Of a stretch of DNA of 64,000 nucleotides, positions 45,598 to 48,593 are shown in pieces. Position numbers and translations under genes: made by a program. The notes under the pieces were generated by a model, which saw only the letters and a program-made list of their open reading frames with translations, was not told the DNA's origin and made no database searches. This stretch comes from Immundisolibacter cernigliae (GTDB lineage: Bacteria; Pseudomonadota; Gammaproteobacteria; Immundisolibacterales; Immundisolibacteraceae). The stretch spans positions 2,852,001-2,916,000 of the forward strand of contig NZ_CP014671.1 of the NCBI RefSeq assembly GCF_001697225.1. The letters are read 5' to 3'. Each line of letters starts with the position of its first letter. Position 1 is the first letter of the stretch.

Positions 45598-45770
45598 AGG
45601 CGCTGCGCGCGTTCTGGGCCTGGCTGCGGGAAGTGTCCGGCGACGATGCCTATGAGCGTTACCTGGCACACCACGCGGCGGCGCATCCGGACAGCGCGCC
45701 GCTCGGGCGGCGCGAGTTTTTCAGTTGGCGACAGGCGACCGCCTGGTCCAAGGTGAAGCGCTGCTGTTAG
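45594..45770 (+). CDS. YbdD/YjiX family small protein
   Basis: 58 residues, the standard CstA/BtsT companion. It begins MKALRAFWAWLREVSGDDAY, contains YERYLAHHAAAHP and ends WSKVKRCC, as expected. It overlaps the cstA stop (ATGA), so it is translationally coupled and probably needed for transporter function. Confidence 0.9.
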   Translation: MKALRAFWAWLREVSGDDAYERYLAHHAAAHPDSAPLGRREFFSWRQATAWSKVKRCC

Positions 45771-45778
45771 GCCAAAGC

Positions 45779-46294
45779 ATGCCTCGCGTGTTTGCAACTG
45801 TTCGTGAGTTGATTTATTGGGAGTATGCGAAGCTCATTTCAGAAAAAGCTGTTGGGGATAGGCTGAACTATAAATTTGTGAATTTTACCCATCAGAAGTT
45901 AATGCATGGGAGGGCGACGCCATCTTCCATCCTCTCCGAAAACAAACAGCTTTTATTGATGGGTGATGTTTGCGCGTATTGCGGAACGACAACTGGTTCA
46001 CTTCATTGGGAGCATATCGTTCCCCGGTCTATCGGGGGGCCGGACAATATTGACAATATGGTTCGTGCGTGTGCGGCATGCAACCTCAGGAAGGGCGCGA
46101 GAGATCCCTATCAATGGTGCCTCGGAAACAAAATCACTGCGCCAATATCGCGAGTCGTTCTGGGCAAGTTCTTGAAGGTCGTATTTGATGAATACGCAGC
46201 CCACGACCTACTGGATTCGGCAGAATACATGCGCAATCATGCAGTTGAAAGAATCACATTGAGTGATATTTTTTTGCATTCGCGCGGCGAGTGA
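45779..46294 (+). CDS. HNH endonuclease in AT-richer DNA
   Basis: 171-residue protein with a zinc-ribbon HNH domain: CAYCG (Cys65, Cys68), HWEHIVPRSIGGPDN (His76, His79) and NMVRACAACNLRKG (Cys98, Cys101). The N-terminal 60 residues are a separate region of unknown function. Codon use and base composition (many A/T third positions) differ sharply from the neighbours, suggesting recent transfer. The start at 45779 lies just 8 bp after ybdD and has only a weak ribosome-binding site. Defence or selfish nuclease roles are possible. Confidence 0.75.
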   Translation: MPRVFATVRELIYWEYAKLISEKAVGDRLNYKFVNFTHQKLMHGRATPSSILSENKQLLLMGDVCAYCGTTTGSLHWEHIVPRSIGGPDNIDNMVRACAACNLRKGARDPYQWCLGNKITAPISRVVLGKFLKVVFDEYAAHDLLDSAEYMRNHAVERITLSDIFLHSRGE

Positions 46295-46389: not shown

Positions 46390-47127
46390 TCAGGCGCTGG
46401 TAGACACCAGGCTGCCGGCGGGCGCCGTCAGGGCCAGGGTGAGGAATTCCAGCCGAAGCAACCACTGGCCGGGCGTGTCCGTGGCCGGCTCACAGCGCAC
46501 CACCCGTGCCAGGGCATCGAACAGGGGCGTCTTGAGCGCCAGTACGGTGTTCGCCGGCAGCGCCCCGGGTGTCGTCAGCTGGGCGCCGGCCGGCGAAAAA
46601 TCCCGCAGTGCAGCCGGCGTGGGGGCAGTCGTGCCACGCAGGAAATACTCGACTGGTGCCGCCACGGCTTGTCGTTCGAACGCGCGTCTTGTTGCGCTCA
46701 GTCGCCTCGCTGCGGGGGGCGGTGATAACGGGCTCGCGCAACCGCTACAGCGCAGGGCTGAATTTTTTGCTGTCGCGTGAGGAACCTGCGTGGCACAGAA
46801 CGGGCAGGTGCCCGGATCGTCCCCGCGCTGGGGCGCCGACACGTGAGGCGTTGCTGTCGCGACTGGCATCGGTTCCTGAGCGGCCTGGGGCGCCGCGCGC
46901 GCGGAATGCGGTCCGAGTCGCGCGTCGTACTCGGCGCGTCGTGCCGGGTCCGACAGCACGGCATAGGCCTGGTTGATCAGCGCCGCGGTGGCGCCGTCGC
47001 CGCCCAGGTCCGGATGCAGGCGCAGCTTCTGCATCAGCGTGCGGTAGGCGGTGCGGATGACGGCCTCGTGCGCGTCCGGTTGCACCTGCAGGATGCGGTA
47101 GTAGTTGCGTCGGTTGGGTCGCTGCAT
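46390..47127 (-). CDS. J-domain / zinc-ribbon / PilZ fusion protein
   Basis: 245 residues with three parts. Residues 8-71 are a J-domain with an intact HPD (38-40) in LRLHPDLGGD. A linker leads to a CxxC-x15-CxxC zinc ribbon (Cys108, 111, 127, 130). Residues about 145-232 fit a PilZ domain: RxxxR at 148-152 and DxSxxG at 176-181 (DFSPAG), both required for c-di-GMP binding, followed by ARVVRC and LRLEF. It may couple Hsp70 recruitment to c-di-GMP. Start at 47127 follows the M of MQRPNRRNYYRIL; the longer frame to 47232 lacks homology. Confidence 0.8.
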   Translation of the reverse strand: MQRPNRRNYYRILQVQPDAHEAVIRTAYRTLMQKLRLHPDLGGDGATAALINQAYAVLSDPARRAEYDARLGPHSARAAPQAAQEPMPVATATPHVSAPQRGDDPGTCPFCATQVPHATAKNSALRCSGCASPLSPPPAARRLSATRRAFERQAVAAPVEYFLRGTTAPTPAALRDFSPAGAQLTTPGALPANTVLALKTPLFDALARVVRCEPATDTPGQWLLRLEFLTLALTAPAGSLVSTSA

Positions 47128-47339: not shown

Positions 47340-48593
47340 ATGCCTTTTTCGACTCTCGGCCTGCGCGCCGAGCTGTGTCGTGCCGTGTCTGCGCACGGCT
47401 ACGATGCCCCTACGCCCATTCAACAGCAGGCCATCCCGGTCATTCTGGCCGGCAAGGACGTGCTGGCCGCAGCCCAGACCGGCACCGGCAAGACCGCCGG
47501 TTTTGCGCTGCCGATGCTGCAGCGCCTGGCGGCCAGCGAGCAGCCGGCGCGACCCAAATCGGTCCGCGCGCTGGTGCTGACTCCCACCCGCGAGCTGGCG
47601 GCCCAGGTCGGGCAGAACGTCAAGGATTACGGCAGCGGGCTTCGCCTGCGCAGCGCCGTGATCTTCGGCGGCGTCGGCATCAACCCGCAGACCAATGCCC
47701 TGGCGCGCGGTCTTGACGTGCTGGTGGCCACACCCGGCCGCTTGCTGGATCACCTGCAGCAGGGCAACTGCGTTCTGGACCGGGTCGAAATCCTGGTGCT
47801 GGACGAGGCCGACCGCATGCTCGACATGGGCTTCATTCGCGACATTCGGCGGATTCTTGCCCTGCTGCCCAAACAGCGGCAGACCCTTCTGTTCTCGGCC
47901 ACGTTCTCGAGCGACATCCGTTCGCTGGCATCGCAGTTCCTGCACCAGCCGGTGGAAATCGACGTCTCGCCGCGCAACTCGACCGTCAGCCAGATCACGC
48001 AGGTGGCTTACGCCGTCGACAAGGGCCGCAAGCGCGAGCTGCTGTCCTGGCTGGTCGGCAGCAACAACTGGCAGCAGGTGCTGGTGTTTGCCCGCACCAA
48101 GCACGGCGCCAACCGCCTGGCCGAGCAGCTCGATTCGGACGGTCTGAAAAGCGCCGCCATTCACGGCAACAAGAGCCAGGGTGCCCGCACGCGGGCGCTG
48201 GAAGGCTTCAAGAACGGCGATGTGCGCGTGCTGGTGGCAACCGACATCGCCGCCCGCGGCATCGACATCGACCAGCTGCCGCTGGTGGTGAACCACGACC
48301 TGCCGGACGTGCCGCACGATTACGTGCACCGCATCGGCCGTACCGGTCGGGCCGGGCGCGATGGCCAGGCCATCTCGCTGGTGGCGCCGGACGAAATCGG
48401 CCTGTTGCGCAGCATCGAGCGGCTGGTCAACCAGCGCATCTCGCCGCAGGTGCTGCCCGGCTACGAACCCTCGCCGCACGCAGTGCAGGCGCAGCCAGAC
48501 TCCCGGCCGCCGATGCGGGGTCGGCCGCAGCAAGGCGCTGGGCGGCGGCCGGGCGGCCCCTCGCGCAGCGCGCCTCGCGGCGGGCGCGGCTGA
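47340..48593 (+). CDS. rhlE: DEAD-box RNA helicase RhlE
   Basis: 417-residue ATP-dependent RNA helicase. All motifs are present: Q-motif [13 protein letters not shown], motif [28 protein letters not shown] in [17 protein letters not shown] in FSATFSSD, and VI-type [14 protein letters not shown] short basic Gly/Arg/Pro-rich tail (from about residue 385) is typical of RhlE-like enzymes and aids RNA binding. Start at 47340 has AGGAA upstream; the leader back to a weak -10 (TACACT, about 47204) is long. It is divergent from the J-domain/PilZ gene. Confidence 0.92.

Follow-up and report, generated by a model that had tools for sequence, protein, structure and literature searches.

How might a cell use a single protein that carries both a contact site for Hsp70 and a receptor domain for the second messenger c-di-GMP? 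This question is raised by a gene in the window, the 64,000-nucleotide stretch of Immundisolibacter cernigliae DNA analysed here, whose product we give the working label JZP, for J-domain / zinc ribbon / PilZ protein. J-domains stimulate Hsp70 through an HPD motif, and PilZ domains bind c-di-GMP through an RxxxR motif together with D/NxSxxG. The initial annotation had reported an intact HPD, four zinc-ribbon cysteines and both PilZ signatures, and we recovered all of them: H38-P39-D40, C108/C111/C127/C130, RxxxR at residues 148-152 and DxSxxG at residues 176-181. Inspection of the reading frame placed the ATG at 47127 on the minus strand, a start codon backed by the homologues, most of which open with M-(x)-NRRNYYRI. 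The gene and its parts are:

46390..47127, minus strand: whole gene JZP (P0001), J-domain / zinc ribbon / PilZ, 245 aa
46924..47106, minus strand: J-domain, residues 8-68 (Pfam DnaJ, 1.9e-13; AlphaFold2 (AF2) pLDDT about 94-97; Foldseek J-domain matches)
47008..47016, minus strand: HPD motif, residues 38-40 (HPD in 78/80 aligned homologues)
46810..46911, minus strand: disordered, fast-evolving linker, residues 73-106 (18% identity between congeners; pLDDT below 50 at 78-89 and 91-97)
46738..46806, minus strand: predicted C4 zinc ribbon, Cys 108, 111, 127 and 130, Cx2C-x15-Cx2C (all four Cys in 75/80 homologues)
46432..46689, minus strand: PilZ domain, residues 147-232 (Pfam PilZ, 4.8e-07; AF2 six-stranded barrel, pLDDT about 93-98; Foldseek matches BcsA, VCA0042 and PA0012)
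46672..46686, minus strand: RxxxR c-di-GMP motif, residues 148-152 (both Arg in 80/80 homologues)
46585..46602, minus strand: DxSxxG c-di-GMP motif, residues 176-181 (exact in 75/80 homologues; the rest NSG in three, QSG in one and DTG in one)

Pfam recognised the DnaJ domain with 50.8 bits (cut-off 27.8) and the PilZ domain with 30.5 bits (cut-off 22.5). No Pfam family scored above cut-off over the zinc ribbon, which is recognised by its two CxxC knuckles and is predicted to bind metal. By fold and by its HPD motif, JZP is a J-domain protein (Hsp40), and its beta-barrel, along with the RxxxR and D/NxSxxG motifs, places it among the predicted PilZ receptors of c-di-GMP. Because it joins a J-domain to other domains and has no class A/B body, it falls into class C: the features of class A DnaJ (four CxxCxGxG repeats, G/F region and CTDs) were not found in the chain, which has only the four cysteines listed above, and the NCBIfam DnaJ models matched only approximately residues 5-92, far under their cut-offs. 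Pfam likewise gave no match to an Hsp70 NBD or SBD anywhere in the chain, and none to the YcgR N-terminal domain ahead of PilZ, where the J-domain and zinc ribbon stand instead.

The full-length AF2 model, built from the family alignment (A2), has a mean pLDDT of 84.6 and combines a J-domain made up of helices with a disordered linker and a barrel of six strands. Its top PDB matches in Foldseek were c-di-GMP-bound BcsA (4p00), VCA0042 (2rde) and PA0012 (8u0i), alongside J-domains. When the C-terminal part was modelled alone (pLDDT 86.7, pTM 0.80), the same PilZ matches were obtained, with MotI/DgrA, YcgR, Alg44 and MrkH at lower ranks. The Foldseek E-values are modest (best 1.5e-4), and the leading matches are all PilZ or J. 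The reading of residues 145-232 as a PilZ barrel, on which the initial annotation had staked its structural test, thus survives at the level of the predicted fold.

We retained the best 80 of the 136 loci that a search of 84,980 species genomes yielded; an alignment of 80 sequences, A2, supplies the motif counts. Since the loci were retrieved with J-domain peptides, similarity in the J part is inflated, but these peptides do not cover the HPD, the cysteines or the PilZ motifs. The aligned homologues come from ten NCBI phyla, with the caveat of possible contamination in some bins, and at an E-value of 0.01 all 80 match DnaJ and 62/80 match PilZ. JZP is not a chance fusion, because 80 relatives have the same architecture, and these homologues rule out a sequencing chimera or frame artefact as its origin. 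The three-module reading first given to this protein is therefore upheld, with DnaJ and PilZ above the Pfam cut-offs and the C4 cysteines widely kept.

We found that the two putative activities are conserved jointly. Mean site differences across the 80 homologues reach 72% in the PilZ part (about 28% identity) and 35% in the J part, the latter similarity being inflated by the retrieval. That HPD persists in 78/80 and RxxxR in 80/80 despite such low PilZ identity suggests that both activities are under selection. The J and PilZ distances across members are correlated (Spearman 0.37, against a permutation maximum of 0.15), as expected of an old fusion whose parts travelled together. Within the genus, the comparison of the window with congener G001 gave dN 0.035 and dS 0.237 for the J part, and dN 0.129 and dS 0.762 for the PilZ part; with dN/dS below 1 in both, J and PilZ are under purifying selection. 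The linker is nearly free of constraint, as congeners share 94% identity in J, 79% in PilZ and 18% in the linker. Together, the joint conservation of HPD and the ligand motifs gives good support, from sequence, to the idea that one chain couples Hsp70 recruitment directly to the sensing of c-di-GMP.

Several members depart from the common pattern. The two HPD exceptions are L088 (HPK) and an Immundisolibacter relative, G002 (L007:280-960; also L035), in which HPD has become HPH with a four-residue deletion and the C4 and PilZ motifs are retained. G002 is, as far as its motifs can tell, a natural J-defective version in which J function can be dispensable. In the Nitrospirota members L107, L109 and L113, the zinc-ribbon cysteines are lost and the HPD and PilZ motifs retained, which marks the zinc ribbon as dispensable in that lineage. 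Four genomes (L118, L119, L120 and L121) encode tandem J-J-zinc-PilZ variants of 330-378 aa, whose second J has no HPD.

GGDEF proteins are encoded in 30/30 tested carrier genomes, at 4 to 37 each, and the window genome encodes 13, together with three further PilZ genes in the scan's first listing, which was without the JZP gene itself. Beyond anything the initial annotation had claimed, we found that JZP co-occurs with flagellin. The association was first noticed in a cross-phylum set, where flagellin was present in 33/33 carrier entries (32 distinct genomes, as G050 and G104 are apparently the same), and was afterwards tested against non-carrier controls. Among Gammaproteobacteria, flagellin was found in 14/15 carriers versus 185/354 non-carriers (199/369 overall; Fisher p 0.0011), and among Acidobacteriota in 6/6 carriers versus 45/193 non-carriers (51/199 overall; Fisher p 2.3e-4), the genomes in both samples being phylogenetically non-independent. 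A combined stratified (CMH) test gave p 1.7e-6, a value that ignores kinship, genome size and c-di-GMP content. Overall, 45/46 distinct carriers have flagellin, the exception being G297, with no flagellin match. We regard this association as a lead, not proof: the presence of flagellin may instead reflect a motile way of life rich in c-di-GMP. A candidate marker for type IV pili, PilM, was uninformative, as it occurred in 33/33 carrier genomes but also in 9/14 controls.

At the membership threshold used for distribution counts (E at most 1e-25), JZP is present in 15/369 sampled genomes of the window's class, Gammaproteobacteria, in 6/199 from a phylum sample centred on the Acidobacteria bin G096, in 4/198 from one centred on G106 (bin BMS3Abin06, which groups with Nitrospirota) and in 1/45 species genomes of a Legionella genus sample. 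All three searched genomes of the window's own genus carry the gene, and the nearest named relative is the Immundisolibacter bin L035. In the tree, members cluster by phylum with some mixing, and a plasmid search gave J-domain-only matches. The distribution is thus patchy, via loss and/or transfer, and some bins may be misassigned.

We estimate at roughly 60% the probability that JZP is a class C J-domain co-chaperone that c-di-GMP controls and that brings DnaK to a client, with a probable link to flagellar motility. This reading builds on the architecture, the model fold, the joint motif conservation, the presence of diguanylate cyclases and the flagellin co-occurrence. The J-domain would stimulate DnaK through its HPD, and binding of c-di-GMP at RxxxR/DxSxxG would change the conformation or partner of the PilZ domain and so decide the timing of DnaK delivery; the direction of this control we can only infer. 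Because JZP is without the client-binding parts of DnaJ (G/F and CTD), the choice of client or of site of action probably lies with the PilZ surface and the presumably zinc-binding ribbon. The process served would most likely be flagellar assembly or motor function. In E. coli, flagellum synthesis requires DnaK/DnaJ/GrpE, according to Shi et al. 1992 as cited in PMC2782266, and a dnaJ mutant of H. arsenicoxydans is non-motile (PMC2848651). Via JZP, c-di-GMP may direct protein folding or remodelling tied to motility, and JZP could tie the DnaK/DnaJ/GrpE requirement for flagella to c-di-GMP motility control. A bolder version, which we put forward tentatively and think rather doubtful, is a route used across phyla by which c-di-GMP would control flagellar assembly or motor output by directly gating a dedicated Hsp70 co-chaperone, so that the motile-to-sessile switch would act through chaperone recruitment.

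The same observations could be read with PilZ as an address and not a switch, such that c-di-GMP, or no ligand at all, docks JZP at a partner complex (the flagellar motor, for example, as with YcgR), where the J-domain would act constitutively. PilZ surfaces that have diverged strongly, to about 28% identity, while J stays alike (in part through retrieval) would suit such docking, as would the disordered linker separating J from PilZ, the flagellin association and the motAB/fliK neighbours of one clade. The invariance of RxxxR, however, fits a response to ligand better than docking alone, and we consider the address reading unlikely. Alternatively, JZP could serve general stress proteostasis, a c-di-GMP-tuned stabilisation of regulatory clients of the kind proposed for CsdK1/CsdK2 with CdbS, with the flagellin link a by-product of lifestyle. 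PilZ/Hsp70 coupling has direct precedent there (PMC10313047), and JZP has no conserved operon partner, but a flagellin association that exceeds class and phylum background counts against such a general role, which we judge quite improbable.

It is also conceivable that one module is vestigial, with PilZ no longer binding c-di-GMP or J no longer engaging DnaK. The lost or altered HPD of G002 and L088, the HPD-less second J of the four tandem variants and the degenerate zinc ribbon in a few Nitrospirota members are what such decay would look like. These losses are nevertheless rare, and dN/dS is below 1 among congeners in the J and PilZ parts alike, so that we give vestigiality very little credence. 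Our preferred reading remains that of a co-chaperone controlled by c-di-GMP.

The initial annotation had described the architecture as one it did not recognise. We found no description of a J-zinc-PilZ family in the open-access papers searched, and the JZP family is apparently undescribed; the pairing of PilZ with a chaperone is, in contrast, already known from Myxococcus xanthus. There, the PilZ-DnaK chaperones CsdK1 and CsdK2, thought to stabilise CdbS, resemble JZP in joining an Hsp70 system and PilZ in one chain (PMC10313047). In CsdK1/CsdK2, however, PilZ is fused to Hsp70 itself, whereas in JZP its partner is a J-domain co-chaperone that also has a zinc ribbon, and the fusion occurs in many phyla. 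Moreover, PMC8316039 states that 4/24 PilZ proteins of M. xanthus have a 'DnaK or DnaJ' domain, unspecified as to which. These share a chaperone-system domain with JZP, and any DnaJ member would represent the same pairing; the comparison is by description only, and the passages that describe them do not mention a zinc ribbon.

Among PilZ proteins, YcgR and MotI (DgrA) share with JZP the PilZ fold (5y6g, 5vx6) and a presumed motility link, but have no J-domain or zinc ribbon, and YcgR has its own N-terminal domain before PilZ. Among J-domain proteins, class A DnaJ similarly combines a J-domain with cysteines, but in the form of four CxxCxGxG repeats followed by CTDs, whereas JZP has one Cx2C-Cx2C pair and no CTDs. 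DjlA, HscB and AtcJ (class C / type III) carry, like JZP, an HPD J-domain without the G/F and CTD modules of DnaJ; unlike JZP, none of the three is known to have a PilZ domain. Chaperones and second messengers are usually viewed as separate layers, and JZP has predicted contact sites for both. Two purified proteins and one nucleotide would be enough for a direct test of whether c-di-GMP controls Hsp70 via JZP, and the near-exclusive presence of JZP in flagellate genomes offers a concrete process to probe. Such work would also give a name and an annotation to a family now visible merely as 'J domain' and 'PilZ' matches.

We found no conserved operon partner of JZP: when flanking ORFs were clustered by BLAST, the synteny was for the most part lineage-specific, and the immediate neighbours were diverse in their Pfam tallies. 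At L041, flagellin and fliD adjoin JZP, and at L069, L090 and L100 JZP lies by fliA, motAB or fliK. A Halieaceae-type clade has motA/motB pairs, fliA and a FliK-like gene near JZP, with a GGDEF gene also nearby at L069. Flagellar neighbours occur at approximately 5/80 loci in three lineages, about chance level by a rough estimate, and we treat them as anecdote, not as proof of a flagellar role. Nearby matches to cheY, fliI and some motB were discarded, as they resemble the generic hits that receiver, ATP synthase and OmpA proteins give. In the window genome, JZP lies about 1.3 Mb away from flagellin.

Divergent from JZP in the window is a gene for a DEAD-box helicase, RhlE-like by sequence (47340-48593, plus strand). 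This arrangement is kept in 3/3 genus genomes (the window, L006 and L007), and the helicase was not found as a recurring neighbour of JZP outside the genus. On the other side, between CstA/YbdD-like genes and JZP, lies an HNH-endonuclease-like gene (45725-46294, plus strand) with the motif CxxC...WEHIVPRSIGGxxNIDNMVRACxxCN, recognised by eye. In congener G001 (L006), the HNH-like gene is missing at the same junction, and approximately 20 bases separate the YbdD-like frame from JZP. Nine loci (L053:10992-16688 and eight more; one representative identified) encode a large RHS-repeat / SpvB-like protein on the downstream side of JZP, at a distance of two to four genes.
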